A DNA stretch of 64,000 nucleotides, taken from contig NZ_CP119422.1 of assembly GCF_030506285.1 (NCBI RefSeq), positions 4,017,501 through 4,081,500 of the forward strand, in the 5' to 3' direction. Numbering within the stretch: the first letter of the stretch is position 1; the number at the start of each line of letters is the position of its first letter. The translations under genes were made by a program, and so were the position numbers. The notes beneath the pieces are model-generated. The model saw nothing but the letters and a program-made list of their open reading frames with translations, ran no database searches and had not been told where the DNA came from. The DNA is from Catalinimonas niigatensis. GTDB lineage: Bacteria; Bacteroidota; Bacteroidia; Cytophagales; Cyclobacteriaceae. This document shows positions 9,449 to 42,530 of the stretch, piece after piece.

Positions 9449-9872
9449 TTTGATGGGGATTTAGAAGTATGGGTAAGTCGCGATAAATAGCAAGGTCATG
9501 GGTAATGGTTTTTTTGAAGCGCTTTTCTCTTTCCGAAGTATAAGTGATGTTAATCACTACCACGGTGTCTTTAAACTGGGACAAAAATAGCTCAGCAGGG
9601 TCAAGATAGACTTCTATTTCTTTGAGAGGAGCCAAATAAGCCAGTTTGCTGAAGATGGATAAGTCAGCCAAAGATTTGGAACTTTCCAGAATACGGATAT
9701 GCTGATTGAATGTCATTTGTACCTGTGTAGCAGCAAGAGCAGACAGGTTTCTGATGAGTAGAAAAACAAAACCGTGCTTCAGAACAAAATCCACACACAG
9801 ATAAGGTGATAAATCATCACTTTGATCCTCTTTTAGAGAGATATTCTTTTGAAGCTTTTGGACTTTGCTCAT
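9441..9872 (-). CDS. Hypothetical protein with a predicted beta-rich C-terminal domain
   Basis: 143 residues, not recognised. The N-terminal 25 residues are charged and may form a short helix (KVQKLQKNISLKEDQ). The rest alternates hydrophobic and polar residues in a beta-sandwich-like pattern (FVFLLIRNLSALAATQVQM, LAPLKEIEVYLDP, TVVVINITYTS), similar in style to Ig-like domains. There is no signal peptide or membrane segment. It overlaps the tube-protein gene by 8 bases and starts 62 bases after the methyltransferase stop, so it may belong to one transcript with both. A functional link to the tube protein is inferred from overlap only. Confidence 0.6.
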   Translation of the reverse strand: MSKVQKLQKNISLKEDQSDDLSPYLCVDFVLKHGFVFLLIRNLSALAATQVQMTFNQHIRILESSKSLADLSIFSKLAYLAPLKEIEVYLDPAELFLSQFKDTVVVINITYTSEREKRFKKTITHDLAIYRDLPILLNPHQNE

Positions 9873-11657: not shown

Positions 11658-11831
11658 GGTGATGAAGGTAGTGGAAAAGCTTTGGGTATATGCGTAAAGT
11701 CTTGCTGATAGCTTACATCTCACAGAGATGCAAAAAAAATATCAGTATTCATCAAGCTTTAAGAAAAGCTTAGCTGCATGAATGCTGGTAATTGCTTAAC
11801 TTTCAGTTACGCATTTGCAACAATCTACACT

Positions 11832-14800
11832 ATGAAGTACCTAAGCTTGCTGTACCTCCTTTTTTTGCTGGCAGCCTGTCAGCCGCAACAAGTGCAGTTT
11901 GCCCCTGAGTTGGAAGCTCGTCTTCCCCGGCAGATAGATTTTAACTTTCATGTCAAACCTATCCTTTCCGATCGCTGCTTTGCCTGCCACGGGCCGGATG
12001 AAAACGCGCGCGAAGCTGACTTGCGCCTTGATCTGGAAGAAATGGCTTTTGCAGCTTTGGGTGAGGATAAGGATCATTATGCCCTGGTCAAAGGGGATGT
12101 GGAAGAGAGTCAGGTGTACCACCGCATCATCTCTCAGGACCCCGAAATCATGATGCCTCCTCCTGAGTCCAACCTGGAATTGAGCGAATACGAAGTGGCT
12201 CTGCTCACCCGATGGATAGAACAGGGTGCAGAATACAAACAGCATTGGTCCTTCATTAAAGCAGAAAAGCCGGAAGTACCTGAAGTGGAGGAAGACAGGC
12301 AGGCAAAAAATGAAATTGACCCCTTTATCCTCAAACGCATGGAAAGGGAAGCGTTGACTTTAAGCCCTGAGGCTTCAAAAGAAACACTGCTTCGCCGGGT
12401 CACTTTTGACCTCACGGGCCTGCCACCTACGATAGAAGAGATGGATGCTTTTCTTCAGGATGATGCTCCTGACGCTTACGAAAAAGTAGTTGACCGCCTG
12501 CTGGCTTCTCCCCACTATGGCGAGCGCATGGCAGCGCAATGGATGGAAATCTCCCGCTATGCCGATACCCATGGCTATCAGGATGATCAGTTTCGCTATA
12601 TGTGGCCCTGGCGCGACTGGGTGATCCAGGCTTTCAATCAAAACCTGCCTTATGATCAGTTTGTGACATGGCAGATTGCCGGAGACCTCCTGCCCAATGC
12701 GACCAAAGAGCAAATCGTAGCCACCGGTTTTAACCGTAACCATGTGCAGAATGTGGAAGGTGGCATTATTGAAGAAGAGTATAGGGTAGAATATGTGGCT
12801 GACCGCACCAACACTTTGGGCAAAGCTTTTCTGGGCCTGACGACGGAATGTGCCCGCTGCCATGACCATAAGTACGATCCTATCTCACAGGAAGATTACT
12901 ATAGCATGTTTGCCTTTTTCAATAATACTGATGAAGTAGGACGCCCACCCCGGGATGGAGGCGAAGCACCCGGTCCGGCACTGCTGCTGACCGATGAGGA
13001 AACGGAAAAGCAGTTGTCTTTCCTTAAAGAAAAAATAGCGGAGCAGGAGGCAAAGCTTGCTGAGATTAGAAAAGAGGAGCAGCAGCCCTTTACCCATTGG
13101 CTGGCAACAGATAAAGGCAGAAAACTTTTACAGCAAACCGTACCAGCCGGACTTGAAGTACACTTTCCGATGGGGAAAGCCTCTCACGAAAAACTGAAAG
13201 AGCTGGAGGAAGTGGAAGGGAAATCAGGCAAAGCGACGCTATTTAATGGTACCGATGGCGCTGGCCTGGATTTGAAAAGCTTTGAACGTTCCGATCCCTT
13301 TACCCTCAGCTTCTGGATAAAGTCACCAGCAGTGAAAGATTATGCCGGAGTACTTGCTTATTCCAGTGGCTACTATGGAGGGTATCGGGGCTACGAAGTA
13401 CTGCTGGTAGAAGACCATCTGGAGTTCCGTCTTTCGCATGAGTTTCCCTACAACGCCCTGCAGGTGGTGACCCGGGAACCATTGAAGTTTGACCAATGGC
13501 AGCATATAACAATTACCTACGATGGCTCCAGCCAGGCGGCAGGCATAGCGTTTTACTTCAACGGAGAAAAGCTGCCGCTGGATATTCAACGTGATCATCT
13601 ATACCGCACTTCCCTTCCCATCAATTCACAATTTGGCAACAGTCGCTATCTGCGGCTGGGCACCAGAGACAACGAAAAAGGATTTGCCGGCGGTGCGCTG
13701 GATGAGCTGATGATATTTCACCGGGCTCTTAGCCTGCCGGAGATTCTAAAGCTGAGTGGTAATCAGGAAAAACTGGAACAACTACTAACAAAACAGAGTG
13801 AGCAGTTGTCGGAAGATGAAAAAACTGCTCTGCAGGATTATTACTTATCTACTTTCAGCGCTGATTATCAGGCTGCTCTGAAAAAGCTGCAATCGCTTCG
13901 CAGGGCAGAAAACGATACCTTAACGAGCATTCCAAAAATGATGGTGATGGGGGATAGAGCAGACAAACGGCCAACCTATTTGCTGGAAAGAGGCGCCTAC
14001 GATGCCCATGGCAAAGAAGTGAATCCCGGCACACCTGAACAGGTGTTTGCTTTTCCTGAAACTTTATCTCCCGACCGCCTGGGACTGGCACAGTGGCTTA
14101 CCCATCCTGACAATCCGCTTACGGCAAGAGTGGCAGTGAACCGCCTGTGGCAGCAGTTTTTTGGTGAGGGGATTGTAGGTACGGCCGATGATTTTGGGAG
14201 CCAGGGCGCATTGCCTACCCATCCCGCTCTGCTGGACTGGCTGACTGTCAGTTTTGTTGAATCAGGCTGGGATGTCAAAGCCCTGCAAAAACGTATAGTC
14301 ATGTCGGCAACTTATCGACAGTCATCTCAGGCTTCGGAAGAATTGCTGAAGCGAGATCCTGAAAACCTGCTACTGGCCAGAGGGCCCAACCGCCGTCTGC
14401 CTGCCGAAATGATACGCAACAATGCACTGGCCGCCAGTGGACTGCTGGCCAGGAAAATCGGTGGCCCCAGTGTAAAGCCCTATCAGCCGCCCGGACTGTG
14501 GAGAGAGAAAGCCTCTGTCGTAGGAGAACGGGAATATAAACCCGGCAAAGGAGAGGATCTGTACCGACGCAGCTTATACACTTACTGGCGAAGGACCATA
14601 CCACCACCCTCCATGCTCACCTTTGATGCCGATGCCCGCAATGTGTGTACTGTAGAAAGGCAGGTGACCAGTACACCTTTACAGGCTTTGATCCTGCTCA
14701 ATGATCCGCAATACGTGGAAGCTTCTCGCATCCTTGCCGAACGCATGCAAAAGGAAACGGATCAAGGTTTGGACGAACAACTGAACTACGGCTTTCGCCT

Positions 14801-15020
14801 GCTGACCGGAAGAAGTGCACTGGAAGGTGAGCTGGAAATCTTTGCTGCCCTGTATCAGGACGAGCTGGAAAAATATACGGCTGAACCGGAAAGTGCCCGG
14901 GAACTGCTAAAGGTAGGAGAGCATCATAGAGATGAGCAACTTGATTTATCCAAAACCGCTGCATTGGCTATCGTAACCAATATTATGATGAACCATGATG
15001 AGTTTTATACGCTTCGCTAA
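11832..15020 (+). CDS. Planctomycete-type surface cytochrome lipoprotein (PSCyt1-DUF1549-LamG-DUF1553), copy 1
   Basis: Large envelope protein of about 1,060 residues. The start is ATG 11832, giving the lipoprotein signal MKYLSLLYLLFLLAAC; the upstream in-frame codons do not belong. Order of domains: PSCyt1 with heme-type motif C49-FA-C52-H53; DUF1549 ([14 protein letters not shown], then a second CxxCH, C340-AR-C343-H344, in [13 protein letters not shown]); a LamG/concanavalin-like domain about residues 450-630; DUF1553 (LGLAQWLTHPDNPLTARVAVNR). Function is not established; it is plausibly a surface electron-transfer or carbohydrate-related protein. It pairs with the downstream DUF1501 gene, and a second pair follows. 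Confidence 0.88.
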   Translation: MKYLSLLYLLFLLAACQPQQVQFAPELEARLPRQIDFNFHVKPILSDRCFACHGPDENAREADLRLDLEEMAFAALGEDKDHYALVKGDVEESQVYHRIISQDPEIMMPPPESNLELSEYEVALLTRWIEQGAEYKQHWSFIKAEKPEVPEVEEDRQAKNEIDPFILKRMEREALTLSPEASKETLLRRVTFDLTGLPPTIEEMDAFLQDDAPDAYEKVVDRLLASPHYGERMAAQWMEISRYADTHGYQDDQFRYMWPWRDWVIQAFNQNLPYDQFVTWQIAGDLLPNATKEQIVATGFNRNHVQNVEGGIIEEEYRVEYVADRTNTLGKAFLGLTTECARCHDHKYDPISQEDYYSMFAFFNNTDEVGRPPRDGGEAPGPALLLTDEETEKQLSFLKEKIAEQEAKLAEIRKEEQQPFTHWLATDKGRKLLQQTVPAGLEVHFPMGKASHEKLKELEEVEGKSGKATLFNGTDGAGLDLKSFERSDPFTLSFWIKSPAVKDYAGVLAYSSGYYGGYRGYEVLLVEDHLEFRLSHEFPYNALQVVTREPLKFDQWQHITITYDGSSQAAGIAFYFNGEKLPLDIQRDHLYRTSLPINSQFGNSRYLRLGTRDNEKGFAGGALDELMIFHRALSLPEILKLSGNQEKLEQLLTKQSEQLSEDEKTALQDYYLSTFSADYQAALKKLQSLRRAENDTLTSIPKMMVMGDRADKRPTYLLERGAYDAHGKEVNPGTPEQVFAFPETLSPDRLGLAQWLTHPDNPLTARVAVNRLWQQFFGEGIVGTADDFGSQGALPTHPALLDWLTVSFVESGWDVKALQKRIVMSATYRQSSQASEELLKRDPENLLLARGPNRRLPAEMIRNNALAASGLLARKIGGPSVKPYQPPGLWREKASVVGEREYKPGKGEDLYRRSLYTYWRRTIPPPSMLTFDADARNVCTVERQVTSTPLQALILLNDPQYVEASRILAERMQKETDQGLDEQLNYGFRLLTGRSALEGELEIFAALYQDELEKYTAEPESARELLKVGEHHRDEQLDLSKTAALAIVTNIMMNHDEFYTLR

Positions 15021-15040
15021 AAGTGATATGTTGGTAAAAA

Positions 15041-15510
15041 GTTATCTGTTAATGGTTATTGAAGAGAAGAATGGAAAGGGATATAAGGAGTTTTGAAGAC
15101 TTGGAATGCTGGAAACATGCAAGGCAGATGCGTATGGCTGTGGCAGAAATTGCTAAGACTTTTCCCAAGATAGAACAATATGCTTTGCAGGATAATTTAA
15201 AAAGAGCGGCTCGCTCCGTAACCAACAATATTGCCGAAGGATATGGCCGCTTCCATTATCAGGAAAATGCGCAGTTTTGCAGAATGGCAAGAGGATCTCT
15301 TTATGAGGTATTAGATCATTTAATTATTGCAGTGGATGAAGGATACATTCAGCAGGAAACTTACGAAAAATTAAAAAAGCAGATAATCACCACCACTCTA
15401 CTAAATGGATACATCAATTACCTGCTCAAAGCCAAAACCAATTTCAAGCGAAAAAGCTAACAGTATTCCAATAACACATAACCATTCCCCAATAACCAAT
15501 AACAGAAAAC
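15041..15510 (+). mobile_element. 470-bp four-helix-bundle cassette bounded by 21-bp inverted repeats
   Basis: The sequence at 15041-15061 and the reverse complement of 15490-15510 agree at 19 of 21 positions. The repeats enclose one gene for a four-helix-bundle protein. In the second copy of this module the DUF1549/1553 gene and the DUF1501 gene are only 14 bases apart. Here they are 493 bases apart, and removing 15041-15510 would leave about 23 bases. This fits insertion of a cassette like the intervening sequences that carry such genes in 23S rRNA of some bacteria. Confidence 0.65.
15071..15460 (+). CDS. Four-helix bundle protein (23S rRNA intervening-sequence protein family)
   Basis: About 129 residues, almost all helical, with the family hallmarks FEDLECWKHARQM, LKRAARSVTNNIAEGYGR and a late LINYLL-like helix (LNGYINYLLKAK). 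Members form pentamers and are known from intervening sequences in 23S rRNA genes, but most are stand-alone genes of unknown function. I chose ATG 15071; a TTG at 15059 is four codons upstream. It sits inside a 21-bp inverted-repeat pair, between two genes that are adjacent in the neighbouring duplicate, so it is an insertion. Confidence 0.85.
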   Translation: MERDIRSFEDLECWKHARQMRMAVAEIAKTFPKIEQYALQDNLKRAARSVTNNIAEGYGRFHYQENAQFCRMARGSLYEVLDHLIIAVDEGYIQQETYEKLKKQIITTTLLNGYINYLLKAKTNFKRKS

Positions 15511-15513
15511 AGG

Positions 15514-16962
15514 ATGTCCGAAAGCATAGAAAAATCCCTCGCCTACCAGATGAACCGGCGGCATTTTTTATCCAAAACAAGTTTGGGTCTGGGTGCGGCA
15601 GCTTTGTCTTCTTTGCTTGGTTCCTCAGCCTGGGCCGGTAGTTTGGATAAAGGAGTGCTGGGAAAACCCCATTTTTCCCCTAAAGTCAAGCGGGTCATTT
15701 ATCTTTTCATGAGTGGTGGACCTTCTCAGCTGGATATGTTTGATTACAAACCCAAACTACAGCAGATGAACGGAGAAGACCTGCCCGAATCTGTGCGTCA
15801 GGGGCAGCGCCTTACCGGCATGACATCCAATCAGCAATCCCTACCCCTGGCAGGAGCACAGTTCGCATTTGAAAGGCATGGCAAAAGTGGGATGTGGGTA
15901 AGTGAACTTTTGCCGCATACGGCTAAGGTGGTGGACGAGCTCTGTTTCATCAAGTCCATGCACACTGAAGCGATCAACCATGATCCGGCAGTCACCTTTT
16001 TTCAGACAGGTTCGCAACAGCCCGGACGCCCCAGCATGGGGGCCTGGCTGAGTTATGGGCTGGGTAGCGATAATGAGAACCTGCCGGGTTTTATTGTGAT
16101 GCTCTCCCGCAATCGGGATGGTGGACAGCCCCTGTATTCCAGGCTATGGGGAAGTGGGTTTTTGCCTTCTCTCCATCAGGGGGTACAGTTTCGTTCCGGC
16201 AAAGATCCGGTATTGTACCTCAATAATCCTCCCGGTGTCAATAGCACTGACCGTAGGCGGGCGCTGGACTATTTACAAAAGCTCTATCAGCAGCAGTATA
16301 CTCGTATCCAGGACCCGGAGATCAATACTAAAATTGCCCAATATGAAATGGCTTACCGCATGCAAACCTCTGTACCGGAGGTGATGGATGTTTCCGGTGA
16401 ACCGGATTATGTGTATGAGATGTACGGCTCTGATGCCCGAAAGCCCGGTACCTTTGCGGCCAACTGCCTGCTGGCCCGTCGCCTCGTAGAGCGTGATGTC
16501 AAATTTGTACAGCTCTATCATATGGGTTGGGATCAGCATGGCAATCTTCCCAATGACATAGCAAGCCAGTGCAAAGCCACCGATCAGGCCTCGGCAGCGC
16601 TGGTGATGGACCTCAAACAGAGAGGACTCTTAGAAGATACGCTGGTGGTTTGGGGAGGAGAATTTGGCAGAACCAACTATTCGCAGGGTAAACTAACCAA
16701 GACCAATTACGGCCGTGACCATCATCCCCGTTGCTTCACCATCTGGATGGCGGGTGCCGGAGTGAAAAAGGGTTTTTCCTACGGAGAAACTGACGAATTT
16801 GGATATAATGTCACCCATAACCCGGTACATGTGCACGATTTTCAGGCTACGCTGTTATATTTACTGGGGGTAGATCACGAACGTCTTACTTTTAAACATC
16901 AGGGACGACGCTTTCGCCTCACTGATGTGCATGGACAAGTGGTAAATGATATTTTAAGTTGA
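15514..16962 (+). CDS. DUF1501 protein, Tat-exported, copy 1
   Basis: 482-residue protein of the DUF1501 family, which belongs to the alkaline phosphatase/sulfatase-like fold. It has a twin-arginine signal ([19 protein letters not shown]15-R16, with Met13 as a possible start). Family blocks are [69 protein letters not shown] and [14 protein letters not shown]; their Asp and His residues are the likely metal ligands. Its substrate is unknown. Genes of this family regularly follow DUF1549/DUF1553 genes in Planctomycetes and some Bacteroidota, which suggests a joint periplasmic or surface task. Confidence 0.9.
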
Positions 16963-16978
16963 CAACCTGATATTGACG

Positions 16979-19900
16979 ATGAAGACGAGAGAAGTGTTGA
17001 AACACCAAACGAGCTGTTTATTTTTAGCTATTTTTTTGGGAGTATCCATCACAGCCTGCGATCAACAGGCAGCAGGAACTGAGGGAGTCGCCAAAAAGGT
17101 GCCCAAGCAAGTAGATTTCAACCTGCACGTAAAGCCCATCCTTTCCGACCGTTGCTTTGCCTGCCACGGACCTGATAACAACAAGCGGGAAGCAGAATTG
17201 CGGCTGGATACCGAAGAAGGCGCATTCAGTGCCTTGAAAGAAAGTGAAGGTCATGCCTTCGTAGCCGGAAAGCCTGAGCAAAGCGTAGCCTTTCAGCGGA
17301 TCAGTTCTACCGACCCGGAGATCATGATGCCGCCTCCCGAATCCAATCTGGTGCTGACAGACTATGAGATAGAAGTGATTGAGAAATGGATTGAACAGGG
17401 AGCCGAATGGAAAGAGCACTGGTCCTTCATCCCTCCAGCGAAACATGAGCTGCCCGAAGTAGATCAACAGGAATGGGTACAAAATCCTATTGACCATTTT
17501 GTGCTGGCTAAGCTGGAAAACGAAGGTTTACAACCTGCTCCCCCCGCTACCAAAGAAAAACTACTCCGCCGGGTTACTTTTGACCTGACCGGTCTGCCCC
17601 CTACCGTAGAAGAGATAGAGGCTTTTCTCCAGGATGATGCTCCCGATGCTTATGAAAAAGTAGTAGACCGTCTATTGGCTTCTTCTCACTTTGGAGAGCG
17701 CATGGCGCCTGTCTGGCTGGACCTCTCCCGCTATGCCGACTCCCACGGCTATCAGGATGACCGGCCCCGTACCATGTGGCCCTGGCGCGACTGGGTGGTG
17801 GAAGCCTTCAATGAAAATCTGCCTTACGATCAGTTCATCACCTGGCAACTGGCAGGAGACCTGCTGCCCGATGCTACCTATGAACAAAAACTTGCCACCG
17901 GCTTCAACCGCAACCATGCCATTACCCAGGAAGGAGGCGTAATTGAAGAAGAATACCTTACCGAATATGCTGCCGACCGTACCAATACTTTTTCCACCAC
18001 CTTTCTGGGGCTGACGGTGGAATGCGCCCGCTGCCACGACCACAAATATGATCCTATCTCTCAGAAGGAATATTTTCAACTCTATGCTTTTTTCAATAAT
18101 GTGCCTGAAAGAGGGCAGATTGATTATCTGAACGAGGCGCCTGAACCGGCCATGCGGGTGGAAGATGCTGAACTGGAAGCCAAGAAAACCTATGTAGACT
18201 CTACCATACTGGCCCTGGAAAACCGCTTGAATCAACTGGAAAGCCAAAAAACGCCTGCTTTCAAAACATGGCTGGCACAAAATCCGTCGCCTGACATAGA
18301 TACGGAAAGCGATCAGCTGGCCTACTTCAAACTGGATATCATGGAGGCACAGCAGTTCAGAGGCGACTATTCGGATTTTCCGGGACTCATGAATACCGGC
18401 TTGCCCAAAAAGATCGATTTACCTGCTCATGTAGAAGGTAAGTATGGCAAGGCTCTTCAATTTAACGGAGCTAACTTCCTTACGCTGGATGATATCGCCG
18501 ATTTTGACCACCACGATCATTTCTCACTGGGCGGATGGATCAAACACAGCAATGCCCATGAACTGCGGGCAGGCCTTTTGAGCCGACGCAATGGAGAAAT
18601 TTCCCGGCAGGGGTATGACCTTACCCTGACCAAAGATAACAAATTGAGCCTGCGCCTCATCCACCACGCAGACCGCGGTGACTACCTGGATGCAGAAACA
18701 GTCTCTTCCATCCCCCCTCAGCAGTGGACCCACGTATTTGCAACTTACGACGGTTCCGGCAAAGCCAGCGGCGTAAGGCTGTACATCAATGGAAAAAACC
18801 AGCCTTTAAAAACCAGACACGATAATCTGGGACGCAAATCCATTCTCAATGGCAATGAGTTCCTGATAGGCAACTGGTACAGCCGCAACAAAGCCTATGA
18901 TACCTATGGCTTTACCGGTGGTAGTATTGATGAAGTCAGAATTTACCATCGTACCCTTAGCCCGCTGGAAGTGCAGCAGGTGGCAGAAACCCAACCTTCA
19001 CAGCAGGAAAACGCACTTTATGCGCATTATTTGCAGAAACAGGACCAGGAATTCTACCGCATTACGCGTCGCCTGGATAGCCTGCGCCAGTTGGATGTGA
19101 GCATTCCCCATGTGATGATCATGCAGGAAAGGGAAGAACGTAAACCTGCCTATCTGCTGGCCCGTGGTTCCTACGATGCCCCTACCGAAGAGGTAGAAAG
19201 AGCAACACCGGAAGCGGTGCTGGCCTTTGATAAAAAATATCCGCGTGACCGTCTCGGCCTCGCTCAATGGCTGTTGGCCCCGGAAAATCCGCTAACCTCC
19301 CGAGTGGCTGTTAACCGCTTCTGGCAGATGTATTTTGGCAAAGGGATCGTTAAGACACCTGAAGATTTTGGCAATCAGGGCGAATTGCCTACCCATCCTG
19401 AACTGCTGGACTGGCTTTCTGTAGAATTCAGGGAATCGGGCTGGGATGTGAAAGCATTACAAAAGCTGATTGTCATGTCGGCTACCTATCAGCAGTCGGC
19501 AAAGGTTGACAAAGAAAAACAGCAAAGGGATTCGGAAAATCTGCTGCTGGCCCGCGGCCCCAACACTCGTCTTACCGCTGAAATGTTCCGCGACAATGCT
19601 TTGGCTGTCAGTGGACTGCTGTACGATAGCCTCGGTGGTAAGTGGGTAAAGCCCTATCAGCCAGACGATATCTGGAAAGCCATGGCCAACCAGATCGGAG
19701 AGAACAAGTATCGGGCAAGTAAAGGCCCTGGTCTTTACCGCCGGAGCCTCTATACCTACTGGAAGCGTACCATTCCTCCGCCCACGATGGTGATGTTTGA
19801 CGCTCCGGAGCGTACCCTGTGTACTGCCAAGCGGCAGAGTACCAGCACTCCTTTGCAGTCGCTGGCCCTGCTTAATGATCCGCAAATCGTAGAGGCGTCT

Positions 19901-20194
19901 CGCAAACTGGCAGAACGTATGCTGGCAGAAGGAGGTGTTTCAATAGAAGAACAGATTGCTTTTGGGTTTCAGGCCGTGACCTCACGACAGCCAAAGGCAG
20001 AAGAACTGAGCCTGTTGCAGGCGTTATATCAGGATAAGCTGGAATATTACCAGCAAAACCCTGAAGAAGTGGAAGGCTTGCTCACGGTAGGCGACGCTCC
20101 TTTTAATCAGCAGTTAGAAAAAGTACAGATTGCTACTTTGGCGGTGGTAGCCAATACCTTATTTAACCTGGATGAAGCCAAATTCAGAAGCTAA
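16979..20194 (+). CDS. Planctomycete-type surface cytochrome lipoprotein (PSCyt1-DUF1549-LamG-DUF1553), copy 2
   Basis: Paralogue of the gene at 11832, about 1,071 residues, same domain order. The start is ATG 16979 (a TTG lies two codons upstream), giving a signal with lipobox SITAC. CxxCH motifs are at C59-C62-H63 (CFACHGPD) and C349-C352-H353 ([13 protein letters not shown]). DUF1549 shows [19 protein letters not shown]. The LamG region covers about residues 470-650, and DUF1553 shows [22 protein letters not shown]. The gene begins 16 bases after the DUF1501 copy 1 stop and is followed within 14 bases by DUF1501 copy 2, so all genes from 11.8 to 22.8 kb probably form one operon. Confidence 0.9.
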
Positions 20195-20208
20195 AAAGAA
20201 TTTTGATC

Positions 20209-21666
20209 ATGGACATACTCAACGAACACTATAACCAAATGAACCGTCGTCACTTCCTCTCCCGCATGAGCCTGGGATTGGGAGGAGCGGCACTGGGAAG
20301 CCTGCTGGGCTGTAGCAGCAATAGTACTCAGGAAGCAGCCATTGACCCGATGAGCGGCATACTGGATCAACTGCATTTTGCCCCCAAAGCCAAGCGGGTG
20401 ATCTATCTCTTCCAGAGTGGTGGCCCTTCTCAAATGGATTTGTTTGACTACAAGCCCCTGCTCAGAAAGATGCATGGCGAAGAGCTGCCTGCCTCCATTC
20501 GCATGGGGCAGCGCCTCACCGGTATGACTGCGGGTCAGAGTTCTTTTCCGCTGGCTTCTTCCCTCTTTGACTTCAAGCAGCACGGCCAAAGTGGCGCCTG
20601 GGTAAGTGACCAGATGCCCTATACTGCTGAAATTGCTGATGAGCTTTGTTTTATCAAAAGCATGCATACCGAGGCCATCAACCATGATCCGGCCATCACC
20701 TTCTTCCAGACCGGCTCGCAGCAACCGGGTCGTCCCAGCATGGGTTCCTGGCTCAGCTATGGACTGGGCAGCGACAACCAGAACCTGCCTACCTTTATTG
20801 TACTACTCTCAAGAGGGGCGCAGCGTCCGCAGCCGATCTACTCCCGGCTTTGGGGCAATGGTTTCCTGGCATCCCTCCATCAGGGGGTACAGTTCCGCTC
20901 CGGCAAAGATCCTGTACTCTTTCTGAACAATCCGGAGGGTATTAATGCCAACACGCGCCGCCAGGTGCTTGATTATCTGGCGAAGCTCAACGATATCCGC
21001 ATGCAGGATTTTGGTGATCCGGAAATAGAGTCTCGCATTGCGCAGTACGAAATGTCGTATCGCATGCAGACCTCCGTTCCCGATGCCCTGGACCTGTCCA
21101 ATGAGCCGGATTCGGTCTTTGAGATGTACGGAGAAGATGCCCGAAAGCCTGGTACCTATGCTGCCAACTGCCTGCTGGCCCGGAGGTTGGCGGAACGTGA
21201 TGTAAAGTTTATCCAGCTCTATCATCTGGGCTGGGACCAGCATGAAGATCTGCCGCGTGAGCTTAGTTCTCAATGCCGGGATACCGATCAGGCCTCGGCT
21301 GCTCTGGTCAAAGACCTGAAGCAGAGAGGCTTGCTGGAAGATACCTTAATCGTTTGGGGAGGAGAGTTTGGCCGTACCAATTACTCGCAAGGCAGGCTTA
21401 CTGAGACCAATTACGGCCGTGACCATCATCCACGCTGTTTCACCATCTGGATGGCTGGTGGGGGTGTGAAAAAAGGGATGACTTATGGAGAGACCGATGA
21501 CTTCTCTTACAATATTGTCAAAGACCCGGTGCATGTGCACGATTTTCAGGCTACCATGCTGCACCTGATGGGTATTGACCATGAAAAACTTACCTTTAAG
21601 CATCAGGGCAGACGCTACCGCCTGACTGATGTGAGTGGGAAAATTGTGAATAAAATTATCGCATAA
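20209..21666 (+). CDS. DUF1501 protein, Tat-exported, copy 2
   Basis: Paralogue of the gene at 15514. The start is ATG 20209 (a TTG is two codons upstream). The signal has twin arginine R13-R14 ([15 protein letters not shown]) and runs into SLLGC, so this copy may be a Tat-exported lipoprotein, unlike copy 1, which has SLLGSSAWA. The same metal-site blocks are present: [64 protein letters not shown] and [14 protein letters not shown]. It is encoded directly after cytochrome copy 2. Confidence 0.9.
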
Positions 21667-34794: not shown

Positions 34795-36259
34795 GTGAAA
34801 ACAACAAATGTAAAAATTCTCAATAGCATTGGCTGGGTTACGGTCTCCTCTTTTGGCAAACAAGGGATCAGATTACTGATCAAACTGGTACTTGCCCGGC
34901 TCCTTCTGCCTGAACATTATGGCCTTATTGGCATGGCAACTATTTTTGCCGGGCTGGTGAGCCTGATTGGGGAATTAGGCATAGAGGCTGCTTTGTTTGA
35001 TACAAAGACGCAGCAAAGAACTCAGTGAATTGCATTACAGCACTGCCTTTTGGGCCAATCTGGGCGTTTCACTGTTCAGCTTTCTGATTGTCGTTTTCGG
35101 AGTCGCGCCACTTGCGGCCTGGTTTTATGAAGAACCAATTTTGAGATCACTGGTTCCAGTCATTGCCATTTCAATTATTCTGGATGCATTTTATGTGATG
35201 CCTAAAACAAAACTAACCAAAAAACTGCATTTCAAACCTCAGGCCATAGTCATGATCTCCAGTTCTGTGATTGCTGGCATAGTCTCCATTATTTTAGCCT
35301 CGCAGGGTTTTGGTGTATGGGCACTGGCATACAATGGTATTATTATTTCACTTACCTCTGCCTTGCTTTATACTCTGTATGTAAGCTGGAAGCCTAAGCT
35401 GGTGTTTGACAAAACAGCTTTCAAAGAATTATTTGGATTTGGAGGGTTCGTATTATTACAAAACATCTTTAACTACTTAAAGAACAATATTGACTACATC
35501 ATGATTGGAAAATTAATCGGTAGCAGTGCTTTGGGAGTGTACACGCTGGCATTTATACTCACCGACACGGTACGTAAACAAATCATGGCAGTCTTGGATA
35601 AAGTACTGTTTCCGATTTACTCTTCTATGCAGGATCAGCCTGAGGTTTTGGGCAGCTACTATATGAAAGTCATAAAGTTCAATGGACTGACACTGATACC
35701 GCTCATGACAGGCATGGTGGTATTTGCCCGGGAAGTGATTATCGTAGCTTTTGGTCCGGACTGGTCAGAAGCTGTATTTCCTCTCCAGATGCTGGCTTTA
35801 GGGGTGGTAGTACATACCGCCTCGGGCACGAGTACTGCCGTATTACACAGTCTCGGACACGCAAACATCGTATTTAAAGTCAGTGTATTTGTAACTGTGG
35901 TCTTTATTGTCCCTGCCGTAGTAATCGGTTCATATCTGGGAGGTATCAATGGAGTAGCTCTGGCCTTATTCATCTGTAAATTCTTCGGACTGGCTACTAT
36001 CCAGCGCTATATCAAACGTTACCTTAACATTACTGTATGGCAAATGCTCAATCAGGTAAGCAAACCTTTTCTGGTATGCTCTGTACTGGGTATCTTTTTG
36101 GCACTGTTCAAGTCCAAATTTGAAGCTGATCTCAACAGCTGGTTGCTCCTTTTTATCGGTGGATTTATACTGGTCCTGGTATATGGAGCCTATGTATATT
36201 TTGTAGAAAAACCACTTATTGAGAATATGATACGTACCATAAAAAATAGAAAAAAGTAA
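34795..36259 (+). pseudogene. Wzx-like polysaccharide flippase, frameshifted
   Basis: Lipopolysaccharide/exopolysaccharide flippase of the MOP superfamily, split into two frames. The first (34795-35028, GTG start) gives LNSIGWVTVSSFGKQGIRLL and GLIGMATIFAGLVSLIGELG, then runs out after EAALF. The second continues IQRRSKELSELHYSTAFWAN and about 12 hydrophobic segments to 36259. Family members read AALIQR without a break. The break coincides with a 4-base tandem duplication, TTTGTTTG at 34992-34999; removing one unit restores one frame of about 486 codons. Unless it is a sequencing error, the gene is inactive or slips back by replication error. Confidence 0.8.
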
Positions 36260-36414
36260 GTATACTCTTTTTGACATACTTATAATTGATCTATTTTCAT
36301 TTATTTTAAAATATTATTTTGGTTTAGACTTATCAAGTCGCTAAATAATCTGGTTCTATTTTCTCCTTATGGGTGAGAAATGGTAACTTCAAAGAAAATT
36401 ACCAATAAACATTT

Positions 36415-37734
36415 ATGAGAACATTTTTTTCATTAGTGGCGGTGGCTTTTCTGTTGACTTTGCCATTCACTGCCGTCCAATCCCAGAACTTATCAGTAAA
36501 GATAGATCAAATGGCTGAGCAGATAGATGAGAAAGTAATCAGTTGGCGACGCGACATTCACCAGCATCCTGAATTGTCAAACCGGGAATTCCGAACCGCA
36601 AAGATGGTAGCCGAGCATCTGGAATCTCTGGGCATAGAAGTGCAGACCGGTATAGCCCATACCGGTGTAGTAGGCGTACTGAAAGGTGGAAAGCCCGGTC
36701 CGGTAGTGGCCCTGCGGGCTGATATGGATGCTCTGCCTGTGGTGGAAAGGGTGGATATTCCTTTTGCCTCTAAAGAAAAAGGAGAATACAATGGCGAAGA
36801 AGTAGGGGTAATGCATGCCTGCGGTCACGATACCCATGTAGCGATTCTGATGGGGGTAGCCGAGACCCTGAGCAGCATGCGCAAAGACCTCAAAGGAACC
36901 GTAAAATTCCTTTTCCAACCTGCTGAAGAAGGAGCACCCGCTGGTGAAGAAGGGGGGGCTGACCTGATGATTAAAGAAGGCGCACTAAAAAATCCTGACG
37001 TAGATGTAGTTTTTGGTCTGCACATCAACTCTCAAACCCCCGTGAATACGATTGGCTACCGTCCTGAAGGTACGATGGCCAGCGTAGATGGACTGGAAAT
37101 CATCGTAAAAGGTACTCAAACGCATGGCGCTTACCCCTGGTCGGGTGTAGATCCTATTGTCACCTCTGCTCAGATTATCATGGGTTTGCAAACCATCGTG
37201 AGCCGTAATCTGGAACTGCTCAAAGCACCGGCGGTAGTCACCATCGGAAAGATAGAAGGAGGCGTACGCAGCAACATCATTCCTGAAGAAGTGAAAATGA
37301 TCGGTACCATCCGCTCGCTGGACCCTGAGATGCAGGACAAAATTCACAAGCGCATCCATGAGATTGCGACTAATATTGGCGAAAGTGCCGGAGCCGAAGT
37401 GGAAGTAAATATCTCTCGCGGCTATCCGGTTACCTATAATGATCCTGAACTGACTGCTCAGATGCTGGGTACACTGGAGGAAACTGCCGGAAAAGAAAAC
37501 GTCATTCTGCGCAATGCCGTAACTGGTGCAGAAGACTTCTCTTACTTTGCACAGGAAGTACCCGGTCTTTTCTTTTTTCTGGGAGGTATGCCCGCCGATA
37601 TGAATCCCGAAGAAGCCGCCCCTCATCATACACCGGACTTCTACATTGATGATAGCGGCCTGAAGCTGGGGGTACGGGCACTTTGTAACCTCACGCTGGA
37701 CTATATGGAAAGCCCGGAGGCAATGGGAAAATAA
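36415..37734 (+). CDS. M20-family amidohydrolase / carboxypeptidase, exported
   Basis: 439-residue zinc hydrolase of the M20D type (N-acyl amino acid amidohydrolase, IAA-amino acid hydrolase-like). It has a signal peptide ending TAVQS-QN. Metal-site motifs are WRRDIHQHPELSNREFRTA, ALRADMDALPV, MHACGHDTHVAILMG (with the conserved Cys) and FLFQPAEEGAPAGEEGGAD. The dimerisation part includes GTQTHGAYPWSGVDPI. It is therefore probably periplasmic and removes acyl or amino acid groups from small amides. A weak terminator follows. Confidence 0.92.
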   Translation: MRTFFSLVAVAFLLTLPFTAVQSQNLSVKIDQMAEQIDEKVISWRRDIHQHPELSNREFRTAKMVAEHLESLGIEVQTGIAHTGVVGVLKGGKPGPVVALRADMDALPVVERVDIPFASKEKGEYNGEEVGVMHACGHDTHVAILMGVAETLSSMRKDLKGTVKFLFQPAEEGAPAGEEGGADLMIKEGALKNPDVDVVFGLHINSQTPVNTIGYRPEGTMASVDGLEIIVKGTQTHGAYPWSGVDPIVTSAQIIMGLQTIVSRNLELLKAPAVVTIGKIEGGVRSNIIPEEVKMIGTIRSLDPEMQDKIHKRIHEIATNIGESAGAEVEVNISRGYPVTYNDPELTAQMLGTLEETAGKENVILRNAVTGAEDFSYFAQEVPGLFFFLGGMPADMNPEEAAPHHTPDFYIDDSGLKLGVRALCNLTLDYMESPEAMGK

Positions 37735-37759
37735 GAGATTGCCTATCCAAAGGCATCAC

Positions 37760-37782
37760 CCGGCCATTGTGCCGGTTTTTTT
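37760..37782 (+). terminator. Short Rho-independent terminator
   Basis: A 5-bp CCGGC/GCCGG stem (37760-37764 with 37771-37775) is followed by seven T. Confidence 0.6.
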
Positions 37783-37844
37783 ATGCAATTTGAGCGCTGA
37801 CTGTTTTCCTGATAACTTCGCAGCTTACTTCTGGTTTTGCATGT

Positions 37845-38429
37845 ATGGATAGAGATTTACACCAACAGATTGCGTTTATGATGGAAACGGATAAGCTGAA
37901 AAGAATCATCCGAAGAAATTATAATGCAGACGGTTCCCGACTGGAAAATACCGCTGAACATAGCTGGCAGATTACGCTCATGGCACTTACCCTCTCCGAG
38001 CATGCCGAGGAAAGTATTGATATTACCAAGGTTATCAAAATGCTACTGATCCATGATCTGGTAGAGATTGATGCAGGAGACACTTATCTCTACGGGGAAT
38101 TTGATTTAGAGGAAAGAGATACCAAAGAACAACAAGCTGCCGAACGTATTTTTGGCCTTTTACCTGAATACCAACAAACCGACTTCATGAAGCTATGGCA
38201 GGAGTTTGAAGCCATAGAAACGCCTGAAGCCCGCTTTGCCAAGGCTATAGATCGGCTAATGCCTATTTTAAATAATTACCATAGCGGAGGACGTTCCTGG
38301 AAAGAAAACAATATTAGCCGGGAGCAGGTGTTGGACAAGTGCAGCGGTATCCAACATGGCTCAGAAAAACTTTGGGCATATGCCCAAAAACTTATTGATC
38401 AGGCTAAGGAAAAAGGATACCTGAAGTAG
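37845..38429 (+). CDS. HD-domain phosphohydrolase (YfbR/HDDC2-like 5'-deoxynucleotidase)
   Basis: 194 residues with the HD superfamily metal site: His in NTAEHSWQITLMAL, the HD pair in LLIHDLVEIDAGD, and a late Asp in AKAIDRLMPIL. This matches the HDDC2/YfbR group, which dephosphorylates deoxynucleoside 5'-monophosphates; the substrate is inferred from the family. The start is ATG 37845 (MDRDLHQQIAFMMETDKLK); an overlapping ATG at 37841 is in another frame. A terminator follows. Confidence 0.88.
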   Translation: MDRDLHQQIAFMMETDKLKRIIRRNYNADGSRLENTAEHSWQITLMALTLSEHAEESIDITKVIKMLLIHDLVEIDAGDTYLYGEFDLEERDTKEQQAAERIFGLLPEYQQTDFMKLWQEFEAIETPEARFAKAIDRLMPILNNYHSGGRSWKENNISREQVLDKCSGIQHGSEKLWAYAQKLIDQAKEKGYLK

Positions 38430-38460
38430 ATATAAGCGGAAGAAGGATCTCAGTAAATAG

Positions 38461-38506
38461 AAGGCAATTGTCTGTAGGATATAGACTACAAGCAACTGCC
38501 TTTTTT
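38461..38506 (+). terminator. Rho-independent terminator after the HD gene
   Basis: AAGGCAATTG (38461-38470) pairs with CAACTGCCTT (38493-38502) with one mismatch, followed by six T. Confidence 0.65.
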
Positions 38507-38523
38507 ATTCCTGTTTCTACTAA

Positions 38524-38679
38524 TTAGTTCTTTCTGGGAGGGGTCTTAATCTCATTCTTAGGAGGCATTGAGCTTGTGTCAGGATCAATGCTATCTTCAG
38601 CACAACCAGTCATGGAGCATGCAACAGAAGTCAGAATGGCTAATGTGAGGATATTGAATTTTGTAATGTATTTTTTCAT
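38524..38679 (-). CDS. Tiny lipoprotein, tandem copy 1 (51 residues)
   Basis: The product starts MKKYITKFNILTLAILTS, has a Cys at residues 21 and 26 (TSVAC, SMTGC), and ends PPKNEIKTPPRKN. This is a lipoprotein signal followed by a mature tail of only 25 to 30 residues rich in Pro and Lys. The protein is identical to that of copy 2; the genes differ by one silent base (GAG/GAA). The unit repeats with a 201-base period including its leader. It is too short for standard gene callers and of unknown function. Confidence 0.72.
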   Translation of the reverse strand: MKKYITKFNILTLAILTSVACSMTGCAEDSIDPDTSSMPPKNEIKTPPRKN

Positions 38680-38724
38680 GTCTTTGTGGGTTTTGTACTT
38701 GGTGGATTAGTATGTTGATGGATA

Positions 38725-38880
38725 TTAGTTCTTTCTGGGAGGGGTCTTAATTTCATTCTTAGGAGGCATTGAGCTTGTGTCAGGATCAATGCTATCTTCA
38801 GCACAACCAGTCATGGAGCATGCAACAGAAGTCAGAATGGCTAATGTGAGGATATTGAATTTTGTAATGTATTTTTTCAT
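38725..38880 (-). CDS. Tiny lipoprotein, tandem copy 2 (51 residues)
   Basis: Same protein as copy 1 in every residue, with the same leader (TACAAAACCCACAAAGAC before the ATG). The near-identity at DNA level, including the spacer, points to a very recent duplication or ongoing gene conversion. No promoter of its own is visible, so it is probably transcribed from the promoter upstream of copy 3. Confidence 0.72.
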   Translation of the reverse strand: MKKYITKFNILTLAILTSVACSMTGCAEDSIDPDTSSMPPKNEIKTPPRKN

Positions 38881-38925
38881 GTCTTTGTGGGTTTTGTATT
38901 CGATGATTTGTGAATTGATGAATAA

Positions 38926-39081
38926 TTAACTTTTTCTGGGAGGAGTTTTGATCAGATTCTTAGGAGGCATTGCACTGGTATCGGGGTTAACAAGGTCTTC
39001 AACACAGCTCGTTATAGAGAAAGTCATAGAAGTCAGAATGACTAATGTCAACATGTTAAATTTTGTGATATACTTTTTCAT
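38926..39081 (-). CDS. Tiny lipoprotein, tandem copy 3, diverged (51 residues)
   Basis: First of the three in transcription order. Same length and layout: MKKYITKFNMLTLVILTS, a single Cys at residue 26 (SITSC), then a tail ending PPKNLIKTPPRKS. Only C26 is shared by all three copies, so it is the likely lipidated residue. Conservation of length, signal and the PPKN-IKTPPRK tail despite divergence indicates selection on the protein, so these are real genes. A consensus promoter lies 82-112 bases upstream. Confidence 0.72.
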   Translation of the reverse strand: MKKYITKFNMLTLVILTSMTFSITSCVEDLVNPDTSAMPPKNLIKTPPRKS

Positions 39082-39162
39082 ATCTTCGTGGTTTAGTACG
39101 TTTTAAGAATCAACTTATAGACCGTTGCTTTTGTGTGTTACTTATTGTGTAAGTCTATGTTT

Positions 39163-39193
39163 CAAAGGTATAAGGAGGGCATCTTTAATACAA
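39163..39193 (-). promoter_or_regulatory. Putative promoter of the tiny lipoprotein cluster
   Basis: On the minus strand, TTG (39193-39191) is followed after 20 bases by TACCTTTG (39170-39163), which fits the Bacteroidota -33/-7 consensus. Transcription would start about 75 bases before copy 3. Confidence 0.5.
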
Positions 39194-39942
39194 TGGGGTG
39201 TGATATTCACGGGGCTTAGCAGTGCTTTTTGCCTTTAAATAAAGACCGCCAAAAGTAGGATCATGGTGCCACTGTTCATTTATTTTGAATTCATGACACA
39301 AACAGCATTCTTCTCACATATGAATGGTTTATACCTGCATGATAAAAGGGTAGAAGGAAGCGTCCTGTATAAAAGCAAGTATTATTTAATAATGTTTATA
39401 TTAAATATAACTACCAGAGATAGTGAATTAGAAAAGTTACATTTTATTATTTATTGATCTTATTGAATAATTTACTAAAAAATAGTGTCTTCTTTAGAAA
39501 TATGAAAAAACCGCCTATTAGTTCTTAATAAATACCCAAAACAACGATTTCATTATCATTTTTGAATCCTCTATTTACCCAGGTACCTATTTGCCTTTTT
39601 TGCGTATGAAATAGGCACTTTATAGAGAGATAGGATTAGTAATATTGAGATTAGATTTTAAATTTTTCGGGTAAATCGGGATAAAACAGAACTGCTTAAA
39701 CATTATTTTTTCGTCGCATTTGGCTCTTTTACCAAAGAATGAGCACTATTTGTAAAATCAACGCTCTACAAAAAAATAACTACCCTATGTTGTTACACTA
39801 ATATTGCAAAAGTAAAATTTGGTAGTTCTCCTTCAGGATCACATTCACACAAAATAATGATGCAACTCATCAGAGGCATGAGAGCACCTTCAAAATATCT
39901 GCGCAGCTTTTGAGGAAGATAGTATTCCTACTGAAATAAGAT
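39194..39942. other. Long AT-rich intergenic stretch
   Basis: About 750 bases without a supported gene. A 64-codon frame at 39263-39457 has AT-biased composition and no motif. No tRNA, terminator or clear repeat is visible. The region could hold a small RNA or decayed DNA, but I see no positive sign. Confidence 0.4.
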
Positions 39943-41019
39943 TTAAAACTTAATTGTCTGATTCAACAGATAATAGTCTGCAATTACCAGGGCAGCCATA
40001 GCTTCTACAATAGGCACAGCGCGGGGAACAACACAAGGATCATGGCGACCCTTACCAGAGACAGTAACACTTTCTCCAGCTTCGTTCAGGCTTTCCTGAT
40101 CTTGCATCAAAGTAGCTACTGGTTTGAAGGCTAATCGAAAGTAAATATCTTCTCCATTGGAAATCCCTCCCTGTATACCGCCGGAGTGATTGGTACGGGT
40201 ACGCACTTTATCACCGTCTTTATAATACGCATCATTATGCTGCGAGCCGTTCAGGGCTACACCTTCAAATCCACTACCATATTCAAAGCCTTTGACAGCA
40301 TTGATACCCAACATGGCTTTGCCTAGCTCTGCATGTAACTTATCAAATACCGGTTCGCCAAGGCCGGCAGGAACACCGGTTATCACACAACTGACAATCC
40401 CGCCAATGGTATCCCGGTTTTTACGGGTAGTGTCAATGAGTTCAATCATCTGCTCAGCAGTAGCCGGATCAGGGCAACGGACAATATTTTCTTCGGTACG
40501 CTTCAGGTCCAGTTCATGATAGCTTTTGTCCAGACGTAGGCTTCCTACCTGCGATACATAAGCATTCGTCTCAATACCTTTATGCTTTAAAAACTGCTTG
40601 GCTACAGCTCCGGCAGCCACCCTGGCGGCAGTTTCACGGGCTGAGCTTCTGCCCCCACCCCGATAGTCACGGACTCCGTATTTGGCATGGTAAGTAAAGT
40701 CAGCATGAGAAGGGCGAAATTTATCGGCGATATGAGAGTAATCTTTGCTTCGCTGATCTTCATTAGGAATGAGGATCATGATGGGCGTACCTGTAGTCTT
40801 GCCATCAAACACACCTGATTGAATATGAAAGGTGTCACTCTCCTTGCGTTGGGTAGTAATTTTGGACTGCCCTGGCTTACGGCGGTCCATATCTTGTAGA
40901 ATAAGCGCTTCGTCCAGAGGCATACCGGCGGGGCAGCCATCTATAATAACTCCAATAGACTTGCCATGTGATTCACCAAAAGTGGTGATTTTAAAAAGCG
41001 TACCGAACGAATTTCCCAT
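39943..41019 (-). CDS. aroC: Chorismate synthase
   Basis: Last enzyme of the shikimate pathway: it converts EPSP to chorismate using reduced FMN. The 358 residues include all three signatures: [18 protein letters not shown] near the N-terminus, [19 protein letters not shown] in the middle and the late FKPVATL segment with [18 protein letters not shown]. It is complete, begins with [19 protein letters not shown] and has its own promoter in the gap to batD. It is not part of an aromatic amino acid operon here. Confidence 0.97.
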
Positions 41020-41051
41020 GCTTCTTCTCCTAGATTAGATAATACAGTTAG

Positions 41052-41082
41052 CAAATGTAGTGGCTAAGCAGCTAAAGCCCAA
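41052..41082 (-). promoter_or_regulatory. Putative promoter of aroC
   Basis: On the minus strand TTG (41082-41080) and TACATTTG (41059-41052) are 20 bases apart, matching the Bacteroidota consensus. The -7 element lies about 33 bases before the aroC ATG and just after the batD stop. Confidence 0.5.
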
Positions 41083-41084
41083 GG

Positions 41085-42530
41085 CTATTTTTTAAATACC
41101 ACTATCACTGTCAGTACCAGCATGCCTAATATGAGGGCATTGGCCAGCAATTGGAGCCATCCATCATTTTCCATACTTCTCAGCGTATTGTCTGCCGAAG
41201 AAGCTTTGCTATAAAAAGTACCTACATCCTGAGCGCTGATATAATCATTCTTCCGGCTCTTGCCAGTAACCTGAATCGCGATATCAGAAGTCAAAGTATC
41301 GTATTGTTTGGTAGAAGTATTAAAGAACACCCACTTAAAATACTCACCAAGCTTATATTCACCGGGCTCGTTGGGTACAGCGTAGTAAGAGAACGCTTTG
41401 GAGCCTACTACTTCATTATTGCGCCTACTGATATTTTGCTCAATGCTAGGGGCATACACATCAAAATTATCATCTTCTTGGATTATTGGTTTATCAATGG
41501 CCGAGATGTTACCTTCTCCTACGATCTTAAACACATAGTTAAAGCTATTCCCGGTGGTGAGTTCCTGCTCACCAATTTCTTCTTCCAGCCGGTAATTTCC
41601 TACCGCTACACTTTCTCTCAGCGGGTGAGGAGGAAGTTTTTTAACGTATACCTGTTTGGGTTTGCTTTGAAAGGTTTTGAAATCTTCCTGTCTGCGGCGG
41701 CCAAAGAAAGAAGGGTTTTTGGCTACTCTGTACTTGATCATCTGCAAACCCACTTCAGGAAATTTAATAACCTCTTCATTGAGTGGATAAAAAGTAGCCT
41801 GGTAAATTTTATATTGGGTATAGTTTTCACCATTGATAGAAACCGGCTTACCGTTAATATTTTCTATGTTAAAATTTTCTTCCCAGGCGTTAGAAGGCCT
41901 GATTTTCTTAAGTATATCAGTTAATTGCTTGCCGAGGTCATAAAACTGTAAGGGTGCCTGATTTCTCTCGGAGACATAAAAAGCCAGGGTAGTGGTAAAT
42001 CCCTCGCCCAGATACACACTATCTTGATCATTGGAAAGAGCCAAAAAAGCATCATCTTTTACATCTACAAATTCCTGCGACTGCTCCTCCTCATCCCTTC
42101 CGAAAAAATCTCCAAATGGGTCAGTAAAAGGGCTATTCCTACGGGTATTTTGATTGGCCGCACCTACAGTAATGGTTGAGCCTGACGAACTTACCTGGGT
42201 TTCATTTACATTCATTCGGAAGGGTGACAATTTAAAACTTCCCTCCCGGGTAGGCAGATAAGTCTGGGTAACACTTTGTGAGGAAGATACCTGCCCATTG
42301 ACAATATTGGTAGAAGAGGATGTGGATATACCAGCCTTCTCAAAACCCGGAATTTCAGGAAAATCATCATATTTGCGCAGACGGTCATCTTGTATTTTTA
42401 CAGTAATAGTGAACTGTTCATTGAGGCCTATTTCATTAGGACCTAATTCCACCGAAACTTGTTGAGCTTCAGCTTGTAAGGCCAAAAAAAATGTCGCTAC
42501 ACATAATATTAGCACATATTTATACCTCAT
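41085..42530 (-). CDS. batD: BatD-like (oxygen tolerance) membrane protein
   Basis: 481 residues. It has a signal peptide (LILCVATFFLALQAEAQ), several repeated beta-sandwich segments beginning with QQVSVELGPNEIGLNEQFTI, and one C-terminal membrane helix (LLANALILGMLVLTVIVVF). This is the BatD architecture: a periplasmic protein anchored at its C-terminus. In Bacteroidota BatD usually belongs to a MoxR-BatA-BatB-BatC-BatD-BatE cluster associated with stress tolerance. Here it stands alone, so it may be a second, dispersed copy. A low-complexity Ser-rich and acidic stretch (residues 105-160) links the first two domains. Confidence 0.85.
   Translation of the reverse strand: MRYKYVLILCVATFFLALQAEAQQVSVELGPNEIGLNEQFTITVKIQDDRLRKYDDFPEIPGFEKAGISTSSSTNIVNGQVSSSQSVTQTYLPTREGSFKLSPFRMNVNETQVSSSGSTITVGAANQNTRRNSPFTDPFGDFFGRDEEEQSQEFVDVKDDAFLALSNDQDSVYLGEGFTTTLAFYVSERNQAPLQFYDLGKQLTDILKKIRPSNAWEENFNIENINGKPVSINGENYTQYKIYQATFYPLNEEVIKFPEVGLQMIKYRVAKNPSFFGRRRQEDFKTFQSKPKQVYVKKLPPHPLRESVAVGNYRLEEEIGEQELTTGNSFNYVFKIVGEGNISAIDKPIIQEDDNFDVYAPSIEQNISRRNNEVVGSKAFSYYAVPNEPGEYKLGEYFKWVFFNTSTKQYDTLTSDIAIQVTGKSRKNDYISAQDVGTFYSKASSADNTLRSMENDGWLQLLANALILGMLVLTVIVVFKK

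Follow-up and report, generated by a model that had tools for sequence, protein, structure and literature searches.

The window, by which we mean the whole 64,000-nucleotide stretch of Catalinimonas niigatensis DNA that was analysed, carries on its minus strand, at positions 38524-39081, three tandem genes of 51 codons each whose two start-to-start distances, by open reading frame calls, are 201 and 201 bases. Tandem Repeats Finder recovers the same arrangement with a period of 201, 2.9 copies and a score of 773, confirming the three tandem lipoprotein genes with a 201-base period described in the initial annotation. As had also been noted there, copies 1 and 2 encode identical proteins and differ by one silent base in 156 (gene position 129), and the diverged copy 3, whose protein is 73% identical to that of copies 1 and 2, keeps the length, Cys26 and the tail. 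Each protein begins with basic residues, continues through a hydrophobic stretch to Cys26 and an acidic motif, and ends in a tail of the pattern MPPKNxIKTPPRK; the mature part, counted from Cys26, is 26 residues long, in agreement with the fewer than 30 first proposed. In the array proteins the acidic motif reads C-x-E-D-x-x-x-P and the tail is short, basic and proline-rich. In all ten of the family members aligned the cysteine is invariant and is preceded by a hydrophobic stretch that, judged by eye, is lipobox-like, and by this putative lipobox and invariant cysteine the array genes probably encode bacterial lipoproteins. The coordinates of the array and its flanking features are collected in Table 1.

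Table 1. Features of the tandem lipoprotein array and its flanks, in window coordinates.
Feature	Position	Strand	Remarks or basis
Hairpin, stable, probable terminator, between array and convergent HD-domain gene	38461..38502		folding z-scores
Lipoprotein gene copy 1	38524..38679	-	51 aa, Cys26, tail PPKNEIKTPPRKN
Lipoprotein gene copy 2	38725..38880	-	protein identical to that of copy 1
Lipoprotein gene copy 3, first gene of the array	38926..39081	-	51 aa, tail PPKNLIKTPPRKS
Predicted leader of array transcript	39082..39162	-	inferred
Putative promoter, TTG-N20-TACCTTTG	39163..39193	-	alignment and pattern; spacing and −7 element the same in G001 and G002

Homologues of the array do exist: tandem arrays are present in both other genomes of the genus that we searched, with two copies in G001 and three in G002, and there are further paralogues (see below). 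In G001 and G002 the arrays occupy a related setting, with aroC (chorismate synthase) on one side and an M20 amidohydrolase gene on the other, aroC being separated from the array by other genes in G002; in the window genome (G000) the HD-domain gene, convergent to the array, lies between the array and the M20 gene. G000 is a single contig of 7.13 Mb, and with two and three copies in the two other species the copy number does not look like an assembly artefact.

Comparison of copies 1 and 3 gives a pS of 0.69 and a pN of 0.15, and comparison of the a and b genes of the G002 array a pS of 0.70 and a pN of 0.06; synonymous divergence is lower between b and c of G002 (pS 0.39) and stands at 0.23 for the G001 pair (a versus b). 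The lipoprotein arrays are under purifying selection in three species, and the constraint on the family that was originally suggested is supported by a pN far below pS. Substitutions among copies and between species are mostly synonymous in the minus-strand frame, on which ground coding by the plus-strand ORFs that lie over the repeats was rejected. An Rfam search of positions 36000-42000 returned no RNA element at the gathering score. Taken together, the sequences look like real, long-maintained genes.

The recent duplication proposed in the initial annotation stands in part: copies 1 and 2 look recently homogenised, but the divergence of copies 1 and 3 is, by its synonymous component and that of a and b in G002, old. 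The two inter-gene spacers agree fully in their last 18 bases and differ in the remainder. Since copies 1 and 2 are near-identical over the gene and these 18 bases, with spacers that are otherwise different, the duplication itself need not be recent, and the locus looks like an older array in which copies 1 and 2 were homogenised recently.

The putative promoter element precedes all three arrays of the genus (G000, G001 and G002) with identical spacing. The −33/−7 promoter consensus reported for the phylum is TTTG/TANNTTTG (PMC6847099), and the putative array element fits this consensus. A sigma-70 promoter scan found five promoters against 6.8 expected and was disregarded. Downstream of the array, the hairpin region at 38455-38512 has folding z-scores of −4.2 on the minus strand and −4.8 on the plus strand, and the hairpin within it was not called by a simple scan. 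The G001 and G002 arrays are also followed by hairpins, of other sequence, with z-scores of −5.0 (G001) and a weak −1.6 (G002). We infer that the three array genes form one transcription unit.

Two more paralogues of the array were found in G000, at C1:1129120 and C1:2582234, and both of these solo genes lie beside one that encodes a membrane protein some 211 residues long. Within the genus, array and solo proteins are 68-77% identical in the mature part and just 24-32% in the signal peptide. Searching 390 genomes of the family (E ≤ 1e-5) revealed 19 genes for the membrane protein in 11 genomes, and pattern matching together with visual inspection placed a tiny lipoprotein ORF within about 1.4 kb of 18 of the 19; the exception, in which pattern and eye recognised no lipoprotein beside the membrane-protein gene, is in G213:C112. 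Fifteen of the linked loci are head-to-head and three are same-strand, and the occurrence of both arrangements indicates that the linkage outlasts rearrangement. In G110 two of the 18 membrane-protein genes share one lipoprotein gene, in G026 six tandem lipoprotein genes lie beside one membrane-protein gene, and in G192 a 4.3 kb contig that begins just ahead of a tandem pair has no membrane-protein gene. An order-wide draw of 241 genomes yielded the membrane protein in G000 only.

At E ≤ 0.05 the lipoprotein profile matched 264 of the 390 genomes, many of the matches being in long frames and resembling the signal peptides of longer proteins, and for this reason only E ≤ 1e-6 was used to assess co-occurrence. 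At that threshold eight of 390 genomes matched and all eight have the membrane protein (Fisher 1.3e-14 by genome and 4e-5 by genus, neither value being corrected for descent). The window array has no membrane-protein gene near it and is an unlinked, amplified branch of a family otherwise encoded beside the ~211-residue membrane protein.

Several features of the linked loci deserve mention. At four solo loci compared, no TTG-N17-22-TAnnTTTG pattern lies ahead of the lipoprotein gene; ahead of the membrane-protein gene TAnnTTTG is found in four of four, with a TTG at allowed spacing in one of four. An AT-rich intergenic region of ~700 bp separates the membrane-protein gene from the solo lipoprotein gene at L026:6411-7120, and likewise in G001 and G002; it holds conserved blocks near the lipoprotein start, where there is no standard promoter match. 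At the second paralogue of G000 (C1:2582234), an ORF with a transposase-associated domain (DDE_Tnp_1_assoc) lies between the solo lipoprotein and membrane-protein genes (L027:7476-8534). In G136 the lipoprotein that adjoins the membrane-protein gene is 67 residues long and its tail contains an internal repeat, GIKQLPAGATKSGQPAGIKQLPAGLTK (L100:6873-7076).

No Pfam or NCBIfam family matched the membrane protein above cut-off. Its structural model is helical and weak (pLDDT 69, pTM 0.44); by our reading of this model the protein would have four hydrophobic helices plus, at its C terminus, a cytoplasmic hairpin of two helices, and an invariant D-x-H-H is carried by the hairpin. Foldseek with the model found no convincing solved fold (best E 2.7), and the best VIA hit, a 66-residue CooJ chain matched along the hairpin, has a Z of 8.4, in a range of which the tool warns for helices. 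A kinase dimerisation domain was suspected from the D-L-H-H motif and was rejected when neither profile comparison nor PDB sequence searches supported it. In 15 members neither HisKA nor HATPase gave a row at E ≤ 0.1, the membrane-protein profile compared with the six TPR kinases described below gave a probability of 0.2%, and an ATPase domain would hardly fit into a protein of ~210 residues; by sequence, there is no detectable likeness to a sensor histidine kinase. PADLOC returned no row for the 15 membrane proteins and a defence system was rejected on that ground. Searches of phage families and plasmids with the membrane protein gave no match, and of two lipoproteins searched against phage families one gave two weak rows (E 0.019 and 0.084).

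Through the weak matches of the first lipoprotein profile (E ≤ 0.05) we reached a second set of lipoproteins, 41-50 residues long and often tandem. A profile built from ten of these tandem tiny lipoproteins matched 108 of 295 family genomes at E ≤ 1e-4, part of the matches lying in longer open frames. Kinase adjacency was examined in the best 30 loci of the 108 matching genomes, two of the 30 being profile seeds, and in every one of these 30 fetched loci, from eight genera, the tiny lipoproteins are divergent from a TPR kinase homologue; many of the loci may be orthologous rather than independent. Each has one to four lipoprotein genes, and ten of the 30 have more than one. Tiny lipoproteins beside TPR kinase homologues are to be seen at loci L105-L134, L070-L073 and L075-L077; L074, whose contig begins close to the lipoproteins, was excluded from the count.

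When eight proteins from these loci were scanned, the six adjacent ones (L070, L071, L072, L073, L075:1221-3470 and L077) displayed TPR and HATPase_c above cut-off, with HisKA above cut-off in L073 only, below it in four and without a row in L077. The motif S-H-D-x-R-G-P-L is invariant across the six, and with TPR, HATPase_c and a phospho-acceptor motif the partner of the second family is, as predicted from its domains, a TPR sensor histidine kinase. Of the other two proteins, both from L075, one has TPR but lacks kinase domains, and the other is a HisKA_3/HATPase protein that lacks TPR. When compared with each other, the two lipoprotein profiles align at 97% across the signal peptide and C-x-E-E/D-x-V-x-P, which is weak proof of common descent because signal peptides resemble each other. 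In the window genome, no tiny lipoprotein was recognised beside the TPR kinases that we checked, four of the best matches. The paralogues, the membrane-protein partner of the array's relatives and this parallel, kinase-linked family are additions to what the initial annotation described.

The tails of the kinase-linked lipoproteins show a distinct pattern of conservation. In ten of 12 kinase-linked arrays the copies within a genome agree better in the tail than in the signal peptide, and between genomes the tail is the less alike of the two (identity 0.29 versus 0.40 for the signal). At signal identities of 0.45-0.60, tail identity is 0.94 within a genome versus 0.31 between genomes, a matched comparison in which the p-values of the pair counts ignore non-independence. 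When 13 arrays, including one of the window's type, are pooled, the tail has a pS of 0.40 and a pN of 0.09, and since synonymous tail sites differ it is selection, and not conversion alone, that keeps the tail. The identity and pS/pN comparisons took in five of the six genes of G026, and identical pairs were omitted from the identity means, with the result that G311 drops out. Across 35 loci, L070 and L071 (the genomes of L105 and L106) not being counted twice, tail similarity tracks the TPR kinase beyond signal similarity (partial Mantel r 0.64, p 0.0005). Given the tail, the signal peptide follows the kinase as well, though less strongly (partial r 0.43, p 0.0005), and thus part of the tail/kinase correlation is shared descent. 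Among arrays of the window's type the tail/signal reversal occurs in two of four only and is not seen as a clear pattern; across the genus the window's tails resemble one another. These data suggest that the second-family tail is matched to a partner, whether as ligand, as displayed signal or as export sentinel.

The simplest account would be that a partner encoded in the same genome recognises the tail, this partner being the small membrane protein for lipoproteins of the window's type and the TPR kinase for the second family. For the window, the three genes would be transcribed as one unit and yield very short lipoproteins, each made up of a signal peptide, a Cys26 that carries the lipid, an export-type acidic motif and a short, basic, proline-rich tail. 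This tail would be recognised in the envelope by the small membrane protein, the lipoprotein acting as ligand or sensory subunit and the membrane protein as receptor, and the array would set lipoprotein dosage under a housekeeping-type promoter. We place the probability of this reading at about 40%; a sensor role for the membrane protein is proposed by analogy with the second family's kinases.

Of the alternatives, the one that survives best, and that we nevertheless regard as unlikely, is that the lipoprotein is an export sentinel: a cheap lipoprotein normally moved to the outer membrane or surface, whose tail would switch a neighbouring sensor when it stalls near the inner membrane. Its models are NlpE-CpxA of the Cpx system and RcsF-Rcs of E. 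coli, in which a lipoprotein feeds an inner-membrane signalling protein. This feeding is the proposed likeness; NlpE and RcsF are much larger than the window-type lipoproteins and are not known to be tandem. The partners look like inner-membrane proteins, and the residues after the cysteine, C-S/T/A/V-E-D in the window family, are also favourable. Among 26 distinct type I mature starts, +3 and +4 are both acidic in 19 and one or the other is acidic in all 26. The 18 larger lipoproteins found have both positions acidic in six of ten from same-profile loci and in none of eight among the others, and of six larger lipoproteins with an acidic start Pfam places two in named families (M57 peptidase and fasciclin). 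Such starts resemble the surface export signal of Bacteroidetes, SDDDD/SDDFE, which is reported for other genera (PMC5080379), and by this resemblance the 'surface peptides' of the initial annotation are plausible. A sentinel, however, needs neither tandem amplification nor species-specific tails.

We are also doubtful that these are small structural or envelope-stabilising lipoproteins whose basic, proline-rich tail binds wall or lipid, the connection with the membrane protein reflecting shared regulation only. The lipobox-like anatomy, basic tail, multi-copy dosage and housekeeping-type promoter would be expected of such proteins, but not that 18 of 19 cases should be linked to a single, specific protein family, nor that second-family tails should vary across species and be nearly fixed per genome.

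Rather improbable, in our judgement, is a peptide pheromone, in which sister cells would use their sensor to read a tail that is released or displayed, with copies raising output and tails defining the group. This would explain tails that are near-identical within a genome, divergent between species and correlated with the TPR kinase, but the window's tails are alike across the genus, and we know of no protease or release step for the tail. Peptides paired with TPR receptors are familiar from the RRNPP systems of Gram-positives, and the kinase-linked family likewise has a short exported precursor encoded beside a TPR protein. It differs in that its TPR protein is a histidine kinase which seems to carry a signal peptide, and in that the precursor is lipoprotein-like, and the window's type differs further, its own partner being without TPR.

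Four lipoprotein members were scanned against known families, and no Pfam or NCBIfam model was matched at cut-off. One of the four reached 15 bits with the PG1828 family lipoprotein (NF050142; cut-off 50), the other three giving no row, and one reached 14.8 bits with the TrbK entry exclusion lipoprotein (TIGR04359; cut-off 23); Entericidin gave no row in Pfam at E ≤ 1. Membership of all three was rejected on these scores. The PG1828 family is also very short, and its signal-peptide region and cysteine align in the L027 paralogue, but the score falls well below the cut-off. The ecnAB genes (Entericidin A/B) of E. coli are tandem, encode lipoproteins under ~50 residues and have a toxin/antidote role. 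The window array is like them in gene arrangement and protein size and differs in having no Pfam match to them, and we know of no linked membrane protein for Entericidin A/B. An envelope toxin/antidote or self-limiting lipoprotein of the entericidin or colicin-lysis kind, which tandem lipoproteins of 40-50 residues bring to mind, is very improbable given that no such Pfam or NCBIfam model appeared at E ≤ 1 in the four members and that the copies are alike, with no obvious toxin/antidote pair.

Genes so short are easily omitted from annotation, yet they are conserved and amplified here and, in dozens of genomes examined, such genes are encoded beside a specific membrane partner. A search of the open-licence PMC literature with narrow terms found nothing on these genes. 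To our knowledge no signals are known that are sensed by such TPR sensor kinases; if the tails are ligands, these kinases would gain ligands, and the tails would provide short, synthesizable peptides for a direct test. A broader and, to our minds, unlikely reading is that Cytophagales use tandem-amplified, lipid-anchored micro-peptides as self-specific signals, with one tail per genome and a co-evolving membrane receptor, either a TPR histidine kinase or, where the window's genus is concerned, a small membrane receptor of a new kind. If true, Gram-negatives would have an equivalent of peptide quorum sensing that is based on lipoproteins.

Finally, two other parts of the window may be recorded. 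Positions 11778-21666 contain two adjacent sets, in each of which a large protein of ~1075 aa, with a CxxCH motif close to the N terminus, precedes one of 482-487 aa, and these look like a duplicated gene pair. Positions 9017-9872 contain two small genes, of which the one at 9017-9448 may encode a protein of the phage-tail-tube type.
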